This document shows positions 7,253 through 29,714 of a stretch of DNA of 64,000 nt, piece after piece. The notes below the pieces were generated by a model that had not been told where the DNA came from, made no database searches, and saw only the letters and a program-made list of their open reading frames with translations. The translations under genes and the position numbers were made by a program. The stretch is from the NCBI RefSeq assembly GCF_014055025.1, contig NZ_CP059571.1, forward strand, positions 1,860,001-1,924,000. Reading direction: 5' to 3'. The DNA is from Neisseria bacilliformis (lineage in GTDB: Bacteria; Pseudomonadota; Gammaproteobacteria; Burkholderiales; Neisseriaceae). Every line of letters begins with the position of its first letter. Positions within the stretch are counted from its first letter, which is position 1.

Positions 7253-8932
7253 TTATTCCTGATTGCCGGACAGCTTGGCTTTCAGCAGATCGCCCAGGCT
7301 GGTGGTACCGGCGTTGGATGCGGCGGCCGCATTCACCGAGCTGAGGGCTTCGCGGTTTTCTTTCGCGTCTTTCGCTTTCACCGACAGCTTGATACTGCGG
7401 TTTTTGCGGTCGACGGTGATAACTACGGCTTCCACTTCGTCGCCTTCTTTGAGCTTGGTGGTCAAATCTTCCACGCGGTCGGCGGCGAATTCGGAAGCGG
7501 GCAGATAGCCTTCCACTTCGTTGGCCAGCGCGACAACCGCGCCTTTGGCTTCCACGGATTTCACCGTGCCTTTGACCAGCGAGCCTTTGTCGTTGACGCT
7601 GATGAAGTTGCCGAACGGGTCGCCTTCGAGCTGTTTAATGCCCAAAGAAATGCGTTCTTTTTCCACATCGATGGCCAAGACGACGGCTTCCACTTCCTCG
7701 CCTTTTTTGTATTTGCGCACGGCTTCTTCGCCGGCTTCGCTCCAAGACAGGTCGGAGAGGTGCACCAAACCGTCGATGTTGCCGGGCAGGCCGACGAACA
7801 CGCCGAAGTCGGTGATGGATTTGACCGCACCTTTGATTTTGTCGCCTTTGTTGTAGTTGGCGGCGAAATCCTCCCACGGATTGGCCTGGCACTGTTTCAT
7901 GCCCAGGCTGATGCGGCGGCGGTCTTCGTCGATTTCCAGAATCATCACTTCGGCTTCGTCGCCCAGCTGCACGACTTTGCTCGGATGAACGTTTTTGTTG
8001 GTCCAGTCCATTTCGGAAACGTGTACCAAGCCTTCGATGCCCTGCTCGATTTCGACGAACGCGCCGTAGTCGGTCAGGTTGGACACTTTGCCGAACAGGC
8101 GGGTGCCGGCGGGGTAGCGGCGGGCGAGGCCGTTCCACGGGTCTTCGCCAAGCTGTTTCACGCCGAGGGAAACGCGCTGTTTGTCCTGGTCGAATTTCAG
8201 CACTTTGGCTTCCACTTCCTGACCCACTTCCAGCACTTCGCTCGGGTGTTTCACACGACGCCATGCCAAGTCAGTGATGTGCAGCAGGCCGTCGATGCCG
8301 CCCAGATCCACGAATGCGCCGTAGTCGGTGATGTTTTTGACCACGCCTTTGACCACGGTGCCTTCTTGCAGGTTTTCCAGCAGGGCTTTGCGCTCTTCGC
8401 CCAAAGTCGCTTCCAGCACGGCGCGGCGGGAAACGACGACGTTGTTGCGTTTTTTATCCAGTTTGATGACTTTGAATTCGATTTCTTTGCCTTCAAAGTG
8501 GGAAGTGTCTTTGATGGGGCGCACGTCCAAGAGCGAGCCGGGCAGGAAGGCGCGGATGCTGTTGATCATGACGGTGAGGCCGCCTTTGACTTTGCCGCTG
8601 ATCAGGCCGGAGAGGATGTCGCCGTTTTCCATGGCCTCCTCCAAAGCGATCCAGTCGGCGGCGCGTTTGGCTTTTTCGCGCGAGAGTTTGGTTTCGCCGA
8701 AGCCGTTTTCCACGGATTCGATGGTAACGGTAACGAAGTCGCCAACTTTGACTTCCACTTCGCCTTGCATGTTTTTGAACTCGTTGATGTCAATCAGCGA
8801 TTCCGATTTCAGGCCGGCGTTGACAATGACGAATTTGTCTTCAATCGCCACCACTTCGGCGGTAATCACTTCTCCCTGGTTCATTTCCTGAACGGCGGAG
8901 TACTCTTCCAACAACTGGGCAAAATTTTCCAT
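7253..8932 (-). CDS. rpsA: 30S ribosomal protein S1
   Basis: mRNA-binding ribosomal protein that helps translation initiation. The product is 559 aa, full length, with six S1 (OB-fold) repeats in a row; the last four carry the KGxVxxxTDYGAFVxL pattern (e.g. [23 protein letters not shown]). The start [17 protein letters not shown] matches proteobacterial S1. It lies between cmk and ihfB on one strand. Confidence 0.98.
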
Positions 8933-18111: not shown

Positions 18112-18151
18112 AGGCCGTCTGAAAACTGCAAAACGGGTTTTCAGACGGCCT
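18112..18151 (+). terminator. Inverted DUS terminator after infB
   Basis: Facing DUS at 18112-18123 and 18140-18151, followed by TTTTTATTAT. It ends the rimP-nusA-infB transcript 36 bp past the infB stop. Confidence 0.8.
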
Positions 18152-18221
18152 TTTTATTATCTGTATCAGCAAATCTCGGAAACAGGTCGGAAATCATCAC
18201 CGGCCATCCTGCAAAAATTTC

Positions 18222-18261
18222 AGGCCGTCTGAAAGCATGGCAATGCGCTTTCAGACGGCCT
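18222..18261 (-). terminator. Inverted DUS terminator at the 3' end of the Dnd operon
   Basis: Facing DUS at 18222-18233 and 18250-18261. It sits 23 bp past the stop of the dndE/ftsK gene and separates it from the convergent infB unit. Confidence 0.7.
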
Positions 18262-18283
18262 CTTACCGTCTTCATCTGTTTGA

Positions 18284-19849
18284 TTACACATCAAACCCGT
18301 GCAGGAAGACAGTGGGGCTGCCGTTCCATCTGACCAGGTGGTCGCCTTTGCCCAGCAGTTGTTCCGCGCCGGTTTCGTCGAGGATGATTTTGGACTCGGT
18401 GGTTTTTTGCACTTTGAGGGCGATGCGGCTGGGGAGGTTGCTGCGCAGGGTGCCGTTGAAAGTTTGGGCGTCGGGGCGTTGGGTGCTGAGGATGAGGTGA
18501 ATGCCGCTGGCGCGGGCTTTTTCGGCAAGTTGGATGAGTTGCGCCTCGATGCCGTCGTGCTGTTTTTTGAGGTTGGCCAGTTCGTCGATGACAATGACGC
18601 GGTAGCGGGGGCGGACGAATTCGGGCAGTTGGACGAGTTTTTGTACGCCGTAGTGTTTCATCAGCAGGTAGCGGTTTTCGGCTTCGGCGACGGTGTCGGT
18701 GAGGAATTGGTACATTTCTTCGTAGTCATCGATGATGTGTTCGTCCCATAGGTCTTCTTCGTTTTCAAAGACAAGGTAGTCGACTTTTTTGGGGTCGAGG
18801 ATGGCGACTTCCATTTTATCTTGGCCTTTGTTGAGGTCGAACAGGCTACGCAGCAGGGTGCGGACGAAGACGGATTTGCCGGAGCCGGTGGTACCGCCGA
18901 TCATCAGGTGCGGAGCTTGGGCGAGGTCGGCGAAGCGGGGGCAGCCGTATTCGTCTATGCCGAGGCAGACGGGCAGGGTGTAGTCTGCGTTGTAGGATTC
19001 GAGGGCTTGGGCGAATTTTTGCGCGCCGAGTTTGTGCCAGTATTTTTCGTCGCGCAGGAGTTTAAGGTCGTAGGCGTGGCTTTCACCGTTGTGGCAGGGG
19101 ACAATGTGCAGGGCTTCGCTTTGGATGCCGAGTTCGGAGCAGAGGCCGGGGTGGTGGCGGTCGAGGTCGGTATAGCGAGAGAGGCGTAGGCGGTAGATGT
19201 CGTAGCGAGCGCCGCTGTGCAGGAAGCTGAGTTCGCTGACGGGGATGTTGAGCCGCTCGAAGGCGCGGCGCAGGCGGGGTTCTTGGTTTTCAGGCTGCTT
19301 TGGGCCGCCGCTGTTGTTGAGGTCGTCTGAAAAGCCGATGCCGGCGTTTTTGACGGCGATTTCGGCCAGTTCGTTGAGAAAGGCTTGGCGGGCGGCGAGA
19401 TGGTCTTCGCGTTTGAAGCGTTTGCAGTCTTCCCAGAAGCGTTCGAGGGTTACGGCGCCGGTGTGCCAGAGGGTTTGGATAAATTGGTAGAGGTCGTCTT
19501 TGCTAAGGGCTTTGCCGGGGTGGAGTTTGAACAGGGTGTCGCTGAGGATGACGAGCCACAGGCGGGCGTGTTCTTGGAAGCAGGTTTGGAAGGAGGGGAT
19601 TTCGATGCCGCCTTGTGCGGCGGGGGCGGGAACCAGGTGCTGTGTGTGTTCGGCAAAGCCTTTGGCGAGGCTGTATCCGATGCAGAGCATGGCCCAGTCG
19701 AAGTTGTTGTTCAGGTGGGGCAGTGCGCCTTCTACGATGAGTTTGGCGCGGATGTCTTTGGCTTCTTTGCTGGAAAAAATGCGTTTTTCGCTCATCAGGG
19801 TGTGGAAGTAGTCGGTGTCCCATTCTTCGGCGGTGTTGAGTTGGTACAT
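18284..19849 (-). CDS. DndE-like/FtsK-SpoIIIE fusion of the phosphorothioation operon
   Basis: A 521 aa protein. The N-terminal part (about residues 10-75, including FSSKEAKDIRAKLIVEGALP and FDWAMLCIGYSLAKGF) resembles the short helical DndE fold that binds nicked DNA. The C-terminal half is an FtsK/HerA-type P-loop translocase: Walker A GGTTGSGKS at 317-325, Walker B VIVIDELANLKK near 420, and STQRPDAQTFNG. The start MYQLNTAEEW is 75 bp after dndD, and the frame remains open upstream without a better start. DUS-like sites of foreign dialect lie at 19289-19300 and 19320-19331. The FtsK assignment is firm; the DndE assignment rests on remembered pattern and operon position. Confidence 0.75.
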   Translation of the reverse strand: MYQLNTAEEWDTDYFHTLMSEKRIFSSKEAKDIRAKLIVEGALPHLNNNFDWAMLCIGYSLAKGFAEHTQHLVPAPAAQGGIEIPSFQTCFQEHARLWLVILSDTLFKLHPGKALSKDDLYQFIQTLWHTGAVTLERFWEDCKRFKREDHLAARQAFLNELAEIAVKNAGIGFSDDLNNSGGPKQPENQEPRLRRAFERLNIPVSELSFLHSGARYDIYRLRLSRYTDLDRHHPGLCSELGIQSEALHIVPCHNGESHAYDLKLLRDEKYWHKLGAQKFAQALESYNADYTLPVCLGIDEYGCPRFADLAQAPHLMIGGTTGSGKSVFVRTLLRSLFDLNKGQDKMEVAILDPKKVDYLVFENEEDLWDEHIIDDYEEMYQFLTDTVAEAENRYLLMKHYGVQKLVQLPEFVRPRYRVIVIDELANLKKQHDGIEAQLIQLAEKARASGIHLILSTQRPDAQTFNGTLRSNLPSRIALKVQKTTESKIILDETGAEQLLGKGDHLVRWNGSPTVFLHGFDV

Positions 19850-19872
19850 TTTGTTTTTCCTGTGGTTTTGTG

Positions 19873-19913
19873 TTTTCAGGCTGCCTTTGTGCGTATCGGA
19901 GGCAGCCTGAAAA
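19873..19913 (-). repeat. Inverted pair of a Kingella-dialect uptake sequence in the Dnd operon
   Basis: TTCAGGCTGCCT (19875-19886) and AGGCAGCCTGAA (19900-19911) face each other with one extra paired base or two on each side and a 13-nt loop. The 12-mer is the AG-kingDUS dialect, not the host AG-DUS. The hairpin lies between dndD and the dndE/ftsK gene and may attenuate the last gene. Confidence 0.85.
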
Positions 19914-19923
19914 GCGGGCGGGC

Positions 19924-21966
19924 TTATTGGAAATAGACGTCGGGGATGACGCGGGAGCGGGCGCCGGTGCTGTCGAGCGATTCGGCTTCTACAAGATAGG
20001 TGCGGCCGGTGTGCGCTTCGAGGCGGCGGGAGACTTCGGGGGTGATTTCGGTGTCCTGCGAGAGCAGGATGACTTGTTGGGGCAGGCTGCTCCAATGGCG
20101 GAACAGTCCTTCGCGGTGGCCGGCATCGAGGCGTGCCAGCGGGGTGTCGATGATGAATGGGGCGTGGTAGCGGGTTACTTCGGCCAGGGCGGAGACGAGG
20201 GACATGATGAGTATCTGCATTTGTCCGGCAGACAAATCGACGCGCGATTCGCAGCCGTCGCGGCCGAACAGGGTCATGCCGCCGTTGTTTTCGATGCGGA
20301 TTTTGTGGATGCGCTCGTCGTGGGCGATGCTGCGGTTGATGCGGGTGGCGGCTTCGCTGACTTCTCCGACTTTCTGTTTCATCAGTTCTTCGGTGAGCCG
20401 TGTGATGGTTTTGTCTACGTTGCCGGCGCGTTGGGATTTGACGAGGCGGGGGTTGCTGTGGCTGATGTTGTCTTGCAGGCGGGCGACTTCGTCTTTGTGC
20501 CGGTCGCGGGTCCGGCTCTGCTGGCTGACGTTGCTTTTCAGACGGCCTGTTTCTTCTGCGAGTTTGTCGATTTCGGTGTTGGCGGTTTTGAGCTGTCTGA
20601 CCAGTTCGTCGTTGTCGGTGCCTTTGAGCAGTTCGATTTCGGCGGCGATGCGTTTGCGCTCGTCTTCGCGTTTGTCGATTTCGGCGAGAAAGCTGCCGAT
20701 TTTGTCCTGCGGCATGCCGGTAAGGCCGGCGATTTCGTTTTGGATTTCGGCGTGGGCGTTGACGGAGAGGTAGTTGTGTTCGATGGTTTCGGCACAATCG
20801 GCGGGCAAGGGGTAGAAGAGTTCTTCCCAGCAGTCTTTGACGGCTTCTTTCATCAGCGGGTCGTCGAGAATCATACCGGCGGAGCGGCCGAGCACTTCTT
20901 TGACTTTGTCGCTGGCGACAAACGCGCCCCAGAAGTCGTTTACCCGTTGGGCGATTTGGTTTTTGCCGGCTTCGTGGTTGAGGCGGTTTTTTTCGCGTTC
21001 CAACTGTGTCTGCAAGGTTTTCAGACGGCCTCTGGGCAGGAAGGCCAGCGGCATGGCTTGGACGGCGGCTTTGATTTTTTCTTCAAATCCGGCGGTTTCT
21101 TTTTCGAGTTTTTCGCGCAGGGTGATGAGGTCTTGCGAGGTGCGGATGTCGGTGCTGCCGCCGAGCTGGCGGGTGAGGCGGTCGCGCTCCTGTACGCGCT
21201 CTTCCCAGCGTTCGGCGGTTTGGTCGAGTTCGGTTTGGAATACGTCCAGTGCGGCCTGCGCGGTTTGCAGGGCGCGTTCGGCTTTTTCCAAATCGTCCTG
21301 CATTTTCTGGCTGGCGTTTTCGGAAATGCATTTGTTGCGGTAGCTTTTCAGGCTCTCGCGCAGTTTGTCGAGCAGGGTGATGCCGAGCAGGCCTTTGAGG
21401 GCGGTGTTCAGCCAGATGCCGGTGCCGCTCTGCTGGGCGGTTTGAACGATTTTTTCGCCGTCGAAGAAGAAAAACGGGGCGTAGTCGATGGGCAGGGCGT
21501 AGCTGTTGAGGTATTTGCCGATGTGTTCTTCGTCCACCGGTTCGTAGCAGCCGTCTTTGCTGATTTCGATGTGTGTTTCCTGTTCGCCGGTCGGCTTGTG
21601 GTAGTGGTCGAAATGCCATTTGCGGCGGATGCGCAGGCCGCATTGGCCGTGCGGGCGGTTTTGGCGGATTTCGATTTCCAGCTCCATCAGGTATTGGCCG
21701 AATCGGGAGGCAGCCTGATGGTGCAGGGCGGATTGGAGGAAGTTGGAATAGCCGTTTTCGCCGGAGTTCAGTCCGGCGCGTTGCAGGTGGGTAACGGCGT
21801 CTTTGTCGTACAGGCACAGGTAAACGGCTTCCAAAAGCGTGGTCTTGCCGTGGCCGTTTTGCGCACCGATGAGGATGATGTTTCTGCCGTCTTTGGGTTC
21901 GGGAAAGGTGAACTGCACGTTGTCGTAGGATTTGAAGTTGCGCAGGCGGATGGAATGAATCCACAT
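19924..21966 (-). CDS. dndD: DNA sulfur modification ATPase DndD
   Basis: SMC/RecN-like ATPase of the DNA phosphorothioation complex. The product is 680 aa with Walker A GAQNGHGKTT at 34-43, a coiled-coil middle (about 215-310 and 440-520), ABC signature VDLSAGQMQIL near 580 and Walker B PFIIDTPLARLD near 610. The FFFFDGEKI motif (about residue 160) is typical of DndD. It starts 6 bp after the small-protein stop. It carries two host-type DUS (20537-20548, 21020-21031) and one 11/12 match to the Kingella dialect (21708-21719). Confidence 0.9.
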   Translation of the reverse strand: MWIHSIRLRNFKSYDNVQFTFPEPKDGRNIILIGAQNGHGKTTLLEAVYLCLYDKDAVTHLQRAGLNSGENGYSNFLQSALHHQAASRFGQYLMELEIEIRQNRPHGQCGLRIRRKWHFDHYHKPTGEQETHIEISKDGCYEPVDEEHIGKYLNSYALPIDYAPFFFFDGEKIVQTAQQSGTGIWLNTALKGLLGITLLDKLRESLKSYRNKCISENASQKMQDDLEKAERALQTAQAALDVFQTELDQTAERWEERVQERDRLTRQLGGSTDIRTSQDLITLREKLEKETAGFEEKIKAAVQAMPLAFLPRGRLKTLQTQLEREKNRLNHEAGKNQIAQRVNDFWGAFVASDKVKEVLGRSAGMILDDPLMKEAVKDCWEELFYPLPADCAETIEHNYLSVNAHAEIQNEIAGLTGMPQDKIGSFLAEIDKREDERKRIAAEIELLKGTDNDELVRQLKTANTEIDKLAEETGRLKSNVSQQSRTRDRHKDEVARLQDNISHSNPRLVKSQRAGNVDKTITRLTEELMKQKVGEVSEAATRINRSIAHDERIHKIRIENNGGMTLFGRDGCESRVDLSAGQMQILIMSLVSALAEVTRYHAPFIIDTPLARLDAGHREGLFRHWSSLPQQVILLSQDTEITPEVSRRLEAHTGRTYLVEAESLDSTGARSRVIPDVYFQ

Positions 21967-21972
21967 TCGGGT

Positions 21973-22191
21973 TTATCTCCAATATGTTCTGTTTTCAAAT
22001 ATTTCGTCGAAGGTTTCGACCATGCCGCGCCGACGGACGCGCTCCTGCTGCTCGCGCTCCCAAGCCACAAGCTCGGCCAGTGCGTCGGGGGCGACTTGGT
22101 GCTCGGCAGCAATCTGCTCCATCAGGGTGCGGGCGGCGGGGTCGCTCCACAGCAGCAGATCGGCCACTTGTTCCTGCGTTTCGGTTTTCAT
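21973..22191 (-). CDS. Small Dnd-operon protein (72 aa)
   Basis: A short acidic helical protein, MKTETQEQVADLLLW… ending NRTYWR. Its ATG overlaps the dndC stop by ATGA (22188-22191), so its translation is coupled to dndC, and dndD starts 6 bp later. Small proteins of this kind are, to my recollection, found beside dndC/dndD in other operons, but no function is known to me. It could be a structural or regulatory partner of DndC-DndD. Confidence 0.75.
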   Translation of the reverse strand: MKTETQEQVADLLLWSDPAARTLMEQIAAEHQVAPDALAELVAWEREQQERVRRRGMVETFDEIFENRTYWR

Positions 22192-23306
22192 GCGTTTTTC
22201 CTTGTATGGGTACGGATGAGGTCTTCTGCCCAAATCCGTTTGATCAAATCAATCTCTTCCTGAGAAATCAGCTGCTTGCCGTAGGCAGCCTGAACGGCCA
22301 GCAGCCGCTCCAAAATCATCTGTCGCGCGGGAACGGTAAAGGGGCCGGGGATGTGTTTGCCGCTTTTGAGGGTTACGGTGCCGTTGCGCCGTTCGACCTG
22401 GCGGTATTCGGGTTGGTTGCGGATTTCCACCAGCCAGTCGCGAAATTCCAAAAGGGGTTGGAATTCGGTTTTGCCCACATCGATAAAGCCTTGCAGGCTT
22501 TTGTCTTTGTGGACGACGGTGCAGGTCCAGCAGCCGAAGCGGCTGGAATTGGTGCCGCAGCCGGGGGCTTCTTCCTGCGATAGCACTATCGGGCATTCGC
22601 CGCCTGCGGCTTCGCGGTAGAGCCGGATGAGATCGCTGTGGCTGCCGCCCCAGGGCGGGTTGTTGGCGGCGAGAAATTCCCATACGTCGTCGGTACTCAA
22701 ATCGACAATCGGGCGGTACACAAAGGCATTGGCGAGACTGCCGTGCGGAGTGAGGTTGCTGCCTTCGAGGTTTCGGTGGCTGTTGATGCTGGTCTTGCGG
22801 GTGGCCGATTCGTCTTTGCGCACGCCCAGCACAATCACCGCCGCACCGTTTTCGGCCGCTTTGTCCAAAATAAACTGGCTGGTGGGCTGGATTTTCAGGC
22901 GGTCGGTACACCAGCGCATGCTGCGGTTGGGCGATGGGTAGCCTTTGCCGATAAGCAGCACCCAAAAGGTTTCGCCGATCTTGGGTGTGGTGATTTCGCC
23001 GCCGACGGGCAGCTTGCAGATTTGCGCCGCCCGCAGGATTTTTCCGAGCATGGTGCGCATGTGCTCCACCACCAGCGGGCTTTCGACCAGGGTGTCGTTG
23101 GATACAAAATATACCTGCCGCTTTCTCAACGAGGGCGGCAGGGCGAGCAGGGATTCAAATACCAGATGGGCGACCAGCGTGCTGTCTTTGCCGCCGGAAA
23201 AGGTAACGATCCACGGGTAAATCTGGGTTTCGTCCAGGTATTCGCCGATGATGTTGCTGCGGATGCGGTCAAACGGGGTTTCGGCGTGGATGGGGATGGC
23301 GTCCAT
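22188..23306 (-). CDS. dndC: DNA phosphorothioation sulfurtransferase DndC
   Basis: PAPS-reductase-like enzyme that uses ATP and a [4Fe-4S] cluster to activate the DNA backbone for sulfur insertion. The product is 372 aa with PP-loop SGGKDS at 37-42 and a cysteine cluster C250, C259, C262 in CGTNSSRFGCWTCTVV, plus MRWCTDR further upstream. Conserved HSDLIRLYREAAGGECPIV matches DndC. It is the first gene of the minus-strand operon and faces an XRE regulator. An exact Kingella-dialect uptake sequence lies at 22283-22294. No dndA cysteine desulfurase is adjacent; a housekeeping IscS probably supplies sulfur. Confidence 0.93.
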   Translation of the reverse strand: MDAIPIHAETPFDRIRSNIIGEYLDETQIYPWIVTFSGGKDSTLVAHLVFESLLALPPSLRKRQVYFVSNDTLVESPLVVEHMRTMLGKILRAAQICKLPVGGEITTPKIGETFWVLLIGKGYPSPNRSMRWCTDRLKIQPTSQFILDKAAENGAAVIVLGVRKDESATRKTSINSHRNLEGSNLTPHGSLANAFVYRPIVDLSTDDVWEFLAANNPPWGGSHSDLIRLYREAAGGECPIVLSQEEAPGCGTNSSRFGCWTCTVVHKDKSLQGFIDVGKTEFQPLLEFRDWLVEIRNQPEYRQVERRNGTVTLKSGKHIPGPFTVPARQMILERLLAVQAAYGKQLISQEEIDLIKRIWAEDLIRTHTRKNA

Positions 23307-23336
23307 TGGCTCAGTGCGTGTGTTTTTGTCTTGTTT

Positions 23337-23380
23337 GCACCCAAAACAGGTGCGGATTGGATTGTACCTAAAATCGGTGC
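23337..23380. promoter_or_regulatory. Two related 17-bp operator-like sites in the dndC/xre divergent region
   Basis: GCACCCAAAACAGGTGC (23337-23353) is a dyad with perfect 5-bp arms. GTACCTAAAATCGGTGC (23364-23380) matches it at 13 of 17 positions. Centres are 27 bp apart. The second ends one base before the xre ATG, and both lie in the only space for the dndC promoter. On the minus strand TACAAT within this space is a possible -10 for dndC. Confidence 0.65.
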
Positions 23381-23381
23381 A

Positions 23382-23645
23382 ATGGGAAACTTACGCCTGT
23401 CGGTGCATTCGGCCGAACACACTTACCTGCGGCAGATTCTGATCCAGCGGCGGCTGGACTTGGGTCTGTCGCAGCGTGCGCTGGCCGAACGGCTGGGCGT
23501 AATCCATTCGTTTGTGGGCAAGGTGGAAACGGGCGACCGGCGGCTGGACGTATTCGAGTTCGCGGATTACTGCGCGGGTTTGGAATGGGATGCGCCGGAG
23601 GTGTTGCGCAATGTGATCAATCAAACCGCAACGAGCAGCGAATAG
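23382..23645 (+). CDS. XRE-family helix-turn-helix regulator (87 aa)
   Basis: Cro/C1-type repressor-like protein. Residues about 13-70 form the HTH (LRQILIQRRLDLGLSQRALAERLGV…FVGKVETGDRRLD). It is divergent from dndC with 75 bp between starts, and that gap holds two related 17-bp dyad sites, so autoregulation and control of the Dnd operon are likely. It may play the regulatory part that DndB plays in other systems; this is inference. The stop TAG overlaps the first base of a DUS. Confidence 0.85.
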   Translation: MGNLRLSVHSAEHTYLRQILIQRRLDLGLSQRALAERLGVIHSFVGKVETGDRRLDVFEFADYCAGLEWDAPEVLRNVINQTATSSE

Positions 23646-23712
23646 GCCGTCTGAAAACCCAAAAGCCGCCAAACCGCCCTGCCCCGCCCGCCGCCTTTTT
23701 TTCAGACGGCCT
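23644..23712 (+). terminator. Widely spaced DUS pair between xre and lpxL
   Basis: Forward DUS at 23644-23655 and reverse DUS at 23701-23712 bound the right edge of the Dnd island. The 45-nt loop makes a terminator less certain. A possible -10 (TACAAT, 23720-23725) for lpxL follows immediately. Confidence 0.5.
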
Positions 23713-28495: not shown

Positions 28496-29714
28496 GAGAC
28501 CTTTGCAAAAAAGCCTTTCCCCCAACAGCCGAAACCCAAACACAGGTTTTCGGCTGTTTCCGCCCCAAATCACTCCTGATTTTACCCAAATACCCCCTTA
28601 ATCCTCCCCGGATACCCCATAATCAGGCATCCGGGCCGCCTTTTAGGCGCAAACAGGCACACTTAGCCTGTTAGCCGCTTTCAACAGGTTTAAACACATC
28701 GCCTTCAGATGGCTTTGCGCACTCACTTTAATCAGCCCAAAATAGGCTGCCCGGGCGTAGCGGAATTTACGGTGCAGCGTACCAAAGCTTTGTTCGACCA
28801 CATAACGGGTCTTCGACAAATATCGGTTACGTTTGGTTTGCGCTTCCGTCAGCGGACGGTTGCGGTGGGCTTTGCGCATAATGCCGTCCAGCAACCGATG
28901 CTCTTCCAGATGTTGCCGGTTTTCCGCACTGTCGTAGCCTTTATCGGCATAGACGGTCGTGCCTTCGGCTATCCCTTCCAGCAAAGGCGACAGATGGTTG
29001 CACTCATGGGTATTGGCGGGGGTAATGTGCAGTTTCTCGATATAGCCTTCCTCATCGGTGCGGGTATGTTGTTTGTAACCGAGTTTGTAGAGGCCGTTTT
29101 TCTTTGTCCAACGGGCATCTTTATCTTTACTCGGTGTGGTTTGGCCGCTGACTTGTCCTTCTTCATCGACTTCTATGGCCTGACGCTGTTTGCTGCCGGC
29201 GGTCTGAATAATGGTGGCGTCAATGACGGCGGCGGATGCCTTCTCTACTTTTAGGTTTTTCTCGGCCAGTTGGCGGTTGATCAGTTCCAGCAGTTCGGAC
29301 AGGGTGTCGTCTTGCGCCAGCCAGTTGCGGTAGCGGCATAAGGTGCTGTAATCGGGGATGCTCAGTTCGTCAAAACGGCAAAACAGGTTGAAGTCGATGC
29401 GGGTGATGAGGCTGTGTTCGAGTTCGGGATCGGAGAGGCTGTGCCATTGTCCGGGCAGGACGGCTTTGAACATGGATAACAGGGGATAGGCGGGACGGCC
29501 GCGGTGGTCTCGAAGGTAACGGGTTCTTTGACGATTCAGGTACTGTTCGATCGGCTGCCAATCAATCACTTGATCCAACTTCAATAGTGGGAAGCGGTCG
29601 ATGTGTTTGGCAATCATGGCTTGTGCGGTTTGTTGGAAGAAGGTGCTCATGAGAAATCCCCTAAATGTCTTGATGGGAATTTAGGGGATTTTGGGGGGCT
29701 TTTGCAAAGGTCTC
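28496..29714 (-). mobile_element. IS5-family insertion sequence (IS1106-like), 1219 bp
   Basis: The ends are inverted repeats GAGACCTTTGCAAAA (left, from 28496) and TTTTGCAAAGGTCTC (right, ending 29714). One transposase gene fills the element. GGTCT lies directly outside both ends (28491-28495 and 29715-29719), which could be a target duplication. The terminal sequence is typical of neisserial IS1106-like elements. It inserted into a repeat-rich spacer between dapC and tmk and splits an 'ACGCACGCGGTCT' element. Confidence 0.9.
28643..29650 (-). CDS. IS5-family transposase
   Basis: A 335 aa DDE transposase with an intact frame. The N-terminal DUF772 domain (FPLLKLDQVIDWQPIEQYL… LFCRFDELSIPDYSTLCRYRNWL) is followed by the DDE catalytic core: Asp in AAVIDATIIQTAGS, Asp in VYADKGYDSAENR and Glu in RYVVEQSFGTLHRKFRYARAAYFG. 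It appears functional as no frameshift or stop is visible. Confidence 0.95.
   Translation of the reverse strand: MSTFFQQTAQAMIAKHIDRFPLLKLDQVIDWQPIEQYLNRQRTRYLRDHRGRPAYPLLSMFKAVLPGQWHSLSDPELEHSLITRIDFNLFCRFDELSIPDYSTLCRYRNWLAQDDTLSELLELINRQLAEKNLKVEKASAAVIDATIIQTAGSKQRQAIEVDEEGQVSGQTTPSKDKDARWTKKNGLYKLGYKQHTRTDEEGYIEKLHITPANTHECNHLSPLLEGIAEGTTVYADKGYDSAENRQHLEEHRLLDGIMRKAHRNRPLTEAQTKRNRYLSKTRYVVEQSFGTLHRKFRYARAAYFGLIKVSAQSHLKAMCLNLLKAANRLSVPVCA

Follow-up and report, generated by a model that had tools for sequence, protein, structure and literature searches.

A DndE domain and a motor of the HerA/FtsK class in one polypeptide, encoded beside a DndD-related ABC ATPase, have been described for a subset of Dnd modification systems in the main text of an earlier paper (clade-3, which also includes certain DndH motors; Rakesh, Aravind and Krishnan 2024; PMC10853773). 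A cassette of this kind was analysed here in a stretch of 64,000 nucleotides from Neisseria bacilliformis, referred to as the window, which is part of a 2.49-Mb single-contig genome. Judged by its sequence, the cassette is a Dnd-type operon with a DndE-FtsK fusion, and it shares with the published group the presence of DndE, identified here through relatives, and an FtsK-class motor in one polypeptide next to DndD. It is a further case of a fusion variant that is already in print and therefore no discovery as a fusion. The original prediction, made from the letters of the window alone, had proposed an under-described system; this could not be upheld, since the DndE-HerA/FtsK fusion beside DndD is found in PMC10853773 and since the gene names given in public entries for related plasmids include dndC, dndD, the small protein and an FtsK gene.

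Genes of the cassette and the N-terminus of the fusion

Four genes follow each other on the minus strand between positions 18284 and 23306: dndC, the gene for a 72-amino-acid (aa) small protein (SP), dndD, and the gene for the 521-aa DndE-FtsK fusion. The SP start codon overlaps the stop codon of dndC as ATGA. This order had been predicted, and the predicted dndC and dndD were confirmed by model scores above the respective cut-offs (Table 1) and by intact motifs. DndC carries SGGKDS of the PP-loop at residue 37 and cysteines at positions 97, 133, 238, 250, 259 and 262; in DndD, Walker A is located at 38, the signature at 578 and Walker B at 605. The FtsK translocase predicted for the C-terminal half of the fusion has its Walker A motif at residue 318, its Walker B motif at 418 and STQRPD at 455, and Walker A and other motor positions are invariant in all 15 aligned relatives. 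Neither the FtsK 4TM nor the gamma family was among the Pfam matches of the fusion (E≤1), and no solved-structure relative of DndC was detected at E≤0.01. Comparison with nine relatives gave ratios of nonsynonymous to synonymous substitution rates (dN/dS) of 0.05-0.20 for dndC and of 0.32-0.41 for the fusion where computable, with dS near or beyond saturation.

The N-terminus of the fusion, predicted to look like DndE, is DndE-like as far as its relatives indicate. Nine Neisseria N-termini matched three plasmid N-termini in a profile comparison (hhalign E 1e-6, probability 91, columns 22-141), and these plasmid relatives (group A5) in turn matched the Pfam family DndE (PF08870) at 0.0065 (L019), 2.7e-4 (L020) and 1.3e-6 (L021 from Rhizobium), the last alone being above the cut-off. 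In single scans, L068 was also above the cut-off (2.6e-8), and nothing was obtained for the Neisseria rows L056 and L061. With a limit of E≤10, the N-termini of nine out of 15 aligned relatives matched PF08870. Among 299 genomes of the phylum, 15 DndE matches were found at E≤0.001, 13 of them above the cut-off. Nine are located in frames of 503-574 aa, five in frames of 130-241 aa and one in a frame of 179 aa, so that DndE-motor fusions are common in that draw. Several results weigh against the assignment. With a limit of E≤10, Pfam gave no match for residues 1-150 of the window fusion, the profiles of the Neisseria N-termini and of the L065-L073 group (A1) did not match each other (E 0.29), and a solved-structure search with the DndE profile A1 of the relatives yielded two capsid matches only (E 0.37-0.38). 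The plasmid group A5 is the only bridge between the Neisseria N-termini and DndE.

The small protein and the C-terminus of DndC

The window DndC spans positions 12-364 of the 447 positions of the TIGR03183 model, and the C-terminal domain of full-length DndC is missing. SP very probably represents this domain in detached form, as indicated by searches in both directions. The 86-aa frame in which SP was scanned matched TIGR03183 at positions 380-446 (E 0.0019), and all seven aligned SPs matched the model at E≤1, the 72 aa of the window with 0.0037 and the best with 4.1e-4. The family of SP, PF20306, gave three matches at E≤0.001 in 398 genomes of the phylum. One is the SP of the window. Another falls in the C-terminal part of a DndC of 489 aa (G401; 4.6e-6, above the Pfam cut-off) encoded in an operon that reads dndB-C-D-E-A, and the third in the C-terminus of a DndC in G208 (8.9e-4, below the cut-off). 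A profile built from the seven SPs was run against 15,794 open reading frames (ORFs) from 217 sources, some of them overlapping. At E≤0.1 it detected 25 short ORFs, all SPs on reading, the seven seed SPs and copies among them, and five longer rows, all C-termini of DndC from three distinct proteins (9e-6, 0.0015 and 0.1); nothing else was obtained. The C-terminal columns 381-436 of a DndC profile matched the small protein of Mesorhizobium (1.5e-4) and that of its Rhizobium relative (3.4e-4). Among fusion loci without an SP gene, five (L068, L070, L071, L073 and L074) contain a full-length dndC ORF of 436-489 aa, followed directly by dndD; L066 and L072 hold shorter dndC pieces, and no dndC is present in the stretch read of L065, L067 and L069.

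Against this identification it has to be considered that the similarity is modest in each single test, including the values for the window and the best SP given above. The SP profile missed the full-length DndC of L068, L070, L071 and L073 at E≤0.1 and just reached 0.1 with that of L074, and a profile-profile comparison of SP and DndC, while giving E 7e-4, had a probability of 26 only.

The family description of PF20306 goes no further than a small protein of some Dnd systems; its recognition as the C-terminal domain of DndC would provide a function for this family. A literature search limited to open-licence papers revealed no earlier statement that SP corresponds to the C-terminus of DndC. 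For CxC systems, a small, fast-evolving protein was suggested to be a possible negative regulator, and we noticed no link of a small protein to DndC in that paper (PMC10853773).

A tree of 27 chosen DndD rows, calculated without L060, L062-L065, L067, L069 and L183, placed 18 of the 19 rows from split systems in one group (100/98, with a long-branch warning). The one row outside it, L198_D2F, belongs to a compound locus described below, of which it is the second DndD. A repeated origin of the DndC split was rejected on the basis of this tree.

Exchange between species and distribution

Identities were compared for ten of the 15 Neisseria loci; the other five, L058, L060, L062, L063 and L064, are broken, shortened or cut by a contig end. 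Two pairs are indicative of exchange. In L056 (from G013) and L061 (from G037), the only two of the 15 loci with both flanks in common, the DndC proteins are 97% identical, SP 46%, DndD 37% and the DndE domain 36%, followed by two motor segments with 96% and 100% identity. At the DNA level, in windows of 200 bases, identity is 99-100% upstream and in the first part of dndC, 90-98% in later dndC, approximately 48-68% from near the end of dndC to about codon 186 of the fusion gene, and 90-100% from there to beyond the gene. The other kind of exchange was observed for L051 and L055, in which DndC (94%), SP (75%), DndD (87%) and DndE (83%) are alike and the motor is 49% identical, with the drop near codon 157 of the fusion. 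The Neisseria motors comprise three alleles, corresponding to three supported groups inside one, with 46-52% identity between groups. These relatives indicate that the SP-dndD-DndE block and the motor are exchanged between species like modules. In one pair, L056/L061, SP appears to travel with DndD-DndE rather than with DndC, and it is therefore proposed to be a docking piece. The same pair constitutes a natural experiment for the proposal, derived from the variability of DndE, that DndD/DndE set target specificity (main text of PMC10853773).

Motors are also replaced by another kind. On a viral contig (L184), dndC-SP-dndD is followed by a gene for DndE fused to a HerA-type motor in place of FtsK (DUF87 3e-8, HerA_C 1.6e-4, DndE 1.7e-6). 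By reading, integrase- and methylase-like genes are located on the same contig. Methylorubrum extorquens AM1 shows the same order, and its fusion is 55.5% identical to the HerA-type protein over the whole length. A single plasmid locus of Mesorhizobium amorphae (L198:4500-16588) encodes both a free DndE, which stands with one DndD, and a DndE-FtsK, which has another DndD beside it. The locus was read as cysteine desulfurase, short DndC, DndD, free DndE and small protein, then the second DndD and DndE-FtsK, after which come two additional genes and one of the DGQHR (DndB-type) kind; it thus holds two DndD/DndE cores and one DndC. In a midpoint-rooted motor tree, the 27 DndE-fused FtsK motors are separated by one branch (100/99) from 13 other FtsK motors, which were picked by hand from the loci available, two of them from the genome of the window. 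A fresh capture of the Neisseria motors from host FtsK was discarded on this result.

DNA uptake words were examined as possible signs of transfer. The home word, AGGCCGTCTGAA, is present in 106 copies in the window, including inverted pairs at both edges of the cassette (Table 1). A different word, AGGCAGCCTGAA, which we take to be a Kingella dialect, occurs three times in the 64 kb, always within the cassette (19875, 19900 and 22283, the last in dndC), and the single window copy of a third type, AGGTCGTCTGAA, is also located there (19320); the latter is found outside cassettes in L056, L057 and L063. In L061, the exchanged block contains, or has at its edge, two copies of AGGCAGCCTGAA and two of AGGCTGCCTGAA (7799, 7994, 8306 and 9704), and neither word was detected in the other 13 Neisseria loci. 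The foreign words in the cassette and in the L061 block point to import of both by transformation from other Neisseriaceae.

Table 1. Features of the cassette and its edges (positions in the window)
Feature	Position	Strand	Evidence
Two inverted pairs of home uptake word, between infB and cassette	18112..18261
DndE-FtsK fusion, 521 aa	18284..19849	-	PF01580 for the motor; DndE part through relatives
FtsK-type ATPase, fusion residues 286-521	18287..18994	-	PF01580 2e-22; PADLOC SspH C-terminus 1.5e-46
DndE-like domain, fusion residues 22-141	19427..19786	-	hhalign E 1e-6 to plasmid relatives
Inverted pair of foreign-type word AGGCAGCCTGAA, between dndD and fusion gene	19875..19911
dndD, 680 aa, coiled-coil ABC ATPase	19924..21966	-	TIGR03185 249.7 bits, cut-off 245.85
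SP, 72 aa, Pfam Sp-DndD PF20306	21973..22191	-	E=2.5e-15 (scanned as 86-aa frame)
dndC, 372 aa, PP-loop sulfurtransferase	22188..23306	-	TIGR03183 374.2 bits, cut-off 290.4
XRE-family helix-turn-helix regulator, 87 aa	23382..23645	+	PF13560 2.7e-7 (scanned from 23385)
Inverted pair of home uptake word, other edge of cassette	23644..23712

Within the genus, represented by one genome per species, the 521-aa protein was matched in 17 of 46 genomes (E≤1e-30). Twelve matches are full-length frames, three are broken (G007, G016 and G020), and in G002 and G017 only the FtsK part is matched, in frames of 1083 and 817 aa. Broken cassettes were noted in the loci L060, L063 and L064 of three Neisseria genomes, and in L064 the pieces are separated by an additional ORF. 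In the loci fetched for comparison, the longest ORFs were taken as genes. In the draw from the phylum, 38 of 398 genomes matched the fusion at E≤1e-40, and the DndE-FtsK fusion pattern was recognised in the window and ten others (frames of 503-574 aa in the ten), whose loci were read. The order dndC-SP-dndD-DndE/FtsK is also present on plasmids of Burkholderia glumae, Aureimonas and Rhizobium phaseoli, in the latter two together with annotated TusA genes and DndB-like genes, and on a viral contig (L090) among apparent phage genes, which reads as a prophage. A Moraxella plasmid contains the broken end of one cassette. The survey of dndC-dndD-FtsK neighbourhoods suggested with the original prediction thus revealed an order that recurs in Neisseria, Burkholderia, Aureimonas, Rhizobium and a viral contig and is therefore not due to chance, with no conserved flank in the 15 Neisseria loci.

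In the window, the cassette sits between infB and a gene which we take to encode a lipid A acyltransferase. A gene for an XRE-family regulator is divergent from dndC, and of the 14 other Neisseria loci, 11 gave a tblastn match to it next to dndC. When the region downstream of infB was searched for an empty site (10 of 45 other genomes), infB and its terminator alone aligned within approximately 6 kb, and therefore no empty site can be shown. By reading, an IS5-type transposase-like gene is located at 28643-29650 on the minus strand of the window. On L090, a gene for a DUF3800 protein (7773-8681; 3.6e-4) lies just beyond the cassette, and DUF3800 is also annotated near the Mesorhizobium locus. 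A further viral contig (L189:7923-9369) carries a dndC-SP pair among apparent phage structural genes, and in the part of it that was read (17,047 of 23,025 bases) neither dndD nor dndE is present; it possibly specifies a phage-borne sulfurtransferase working with host partners. In a phage collection, DndC-like proteins were seen in 22 records, several annotated as PAPS reductases and two named Salmonella enterica.

Proposed mechanism, alternatives and relation to known systems

We regard it as fairly probable that the cassette specifies a phosphorothioate (PT) writer with a recognition subunit driven along DNA by its own motor. Housekeeping IscS would pass sulfur to DndC, and SP, as a separate DndC C-terminal domain, would dock DndC onto a recognition unit formed by DndD and DndE. 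The target would be recognised by DndD, the ABC ATPase, together with the DndE domain, and the FtsK motor fused to DndE would pump along the duplex, coupling recognition and sulfur insertion to translocation. The SP-DndD-DndE block would set specificity and be swapped as a whole, with DndC and the motor as general parts, of which the motor is itself replaceable. The role of DndB in controlling expression is probably taken by the divergent XRE protein. This scheme, from PT chemistry and docking to translocation, specificity, regulation and any role in defence, is what we infer from the sequences. It speaks against the scheme that a writer without a reader offers no obvious benefit that would keep the cassette.

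Tentatively, and with clearly lower probability, the cassette may be a combinatorial PT defence composed of a constant sulfurtransferase, an exchangeable SP-DndD-DndE block and an exchangeable motor, to which the three FtsK alleles in Neisseria and HerA elsewhere would correspond. SP would then be a docking domain of DndC freed for block swapping by natural transformation, and the motor would stop unmarked invading DNA without a nuclease. A stand-alone defence, somewhat less likely again, would use PT to mark self, and a complex of DndD, DndE and motor would track unmarked incoming DNA, with the putative motor effector blocking or displacing replication, transcription or packaging without cutting. 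It would be consistent with the location of the cassette on the prophage-like contig L090, with a motor closest in PADLOC to SspH, a PT-defence protein, and with two kinds of motors, FtsK and HerA, joined to DndE. No ORF outside the cassette is present in more than three of the 15 Neisseria loci (the window and 14 fetched loci), and therefore no linked nuclease is conserved; however, the flanking ORFs were not searched individually for nuclease domains. On the Mesorhizobium plasmid, moreover, a DndA-DndC-DndD-DndE set and other genes accompany the DndE-FtsK unit, so that restriction may be carried out by other proteins. The alternative given in the original prediction, in which the motor takes the place of the usual restriction arm, may hold but is not evident from these sequences.

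An ordinary PT modification-restriction system with its restriction partner elsewhere in the genome is improbable. As predicted, no dndA, dndB, dndF or known restriction gene is located beside the cassette. The original prediction had also raised a complete dndB/dndFGH set at another site. In 12 cassette-bearing Neisseria genomes DndB (PF14072) was not detected, 2 of 14 control genomes being positive, and DndF was not detected above the cut-off of 50, the 14 control genomes being negative as well; sub-threshold matches of 18.9-21.5 bits over 68 positions were seen in six of the 12. DndF, reported in all DndFGH taxa in the main text of PMC10853773, was used as the DndFGH marker; DndG, DndH, DndI, SspF-G and PbeA were not searched genome-wide. 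HNH (PF01844) and IscS were searched in the genome of the window, which gave no HNH match and an IscS of 778.4 bits (cut-off 643.2). Since housekeeping IscS is present and can substitute for DndA (main text of PMC10853773), the missing dndA is ordinary. A partner elsewhere would be compatible with the DndB-like genes at the Rhizobium phaseoli and Aureimonas loci, the HNH gene at the former, and a GmrSD-type gene (PF03235) in the genome of the window. The latter, specifying 602 aa, was matched at G000:C1:1931128-1931754, approximately 7 kb past the end of the window (L214:1462-3270). It was rejected as a partner of the cassette, because PF03235 was found in 4 of the 12 cassette-bearing genomes only and because its match to PADLOC SspE is weak (8e-4 over 67 residues); its closest PADLOC model is HEC-05 (4.6e-31). 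It adjoins a gene reading as alanyl-tRNA synthetase.

It is very unlikely that no PT is made at all, with DndC and SP acting in another chemistry or the system decaying. The fusion gene is broken in 3 of 15 cassette-bearing Neisseria genomes, the dndC frame found in G033 starts only at residue 99, and within the 17 kb read of the viral contig L189, dndC-SP is accompanied by neither dndD nor dndE, all of which would fit this possibility. In the window, however, the frames are intact with full motifs, and the dN/dS values given above, with their reservation on dS, also argue against decay.

The way in which DndCDE writers select their sites could be approached with such cassettes: a natural writer whose recognition subunit contains a motor, together with the natural chimeras, would make the target-setting part and the role of translocation directly testable, and comparing the PT motifs of near-identical cassettes would be a way to separate the contributions of recognition block, enzyme and motor.

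Compared to the canonical dndBCDE-A operon (L180), the window contains homologues of DndC, DndD and, as judged from relatives, DndE in the same order, whereas in L180 DndB and DndA appear to be present, DndE is a free protein of 124 aa, and DndC, at 489 aa, includes the C-terminal domain. The C-terminal motor of the fusion is related to that of SspH, but no other SspH/DndH domain was found in it by a Pfam scan, and DndF is not above the cut-off, unlike the situation in SspFGH/DndFGH systems. Regarding PbeABCD/CxC systems, the best PADLOC model for the window DndD is PbeC (3.4e-113), ranked above the DndD models. This label was not adopted because a CxC or CxxC motif is absent from the window DndD, as it is from seven relatives tested; DndC is present, and no PbeA was seen beside the cassette in the window. 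The PADLOC name may mislead for the product of 19924-21966. In its modular build the cassette is analogous to type I restriction-modification systems, in which a translocating motor is combined with a constant enzyme and an interchangeable recognition part; it is not proposed as a member. The main text of PMC10853773 does not mention Neisseria, and we noticed no reference in that paper to a split DndC or to an exchange of blocks across species; the HerA-type fusions of L184 and L199 may or may not be contained in its supplement. To the published fusion group the present analysis adds the probable identity of SP, HerA as an alternative motor, clean block exchanges and foreign uptake words.

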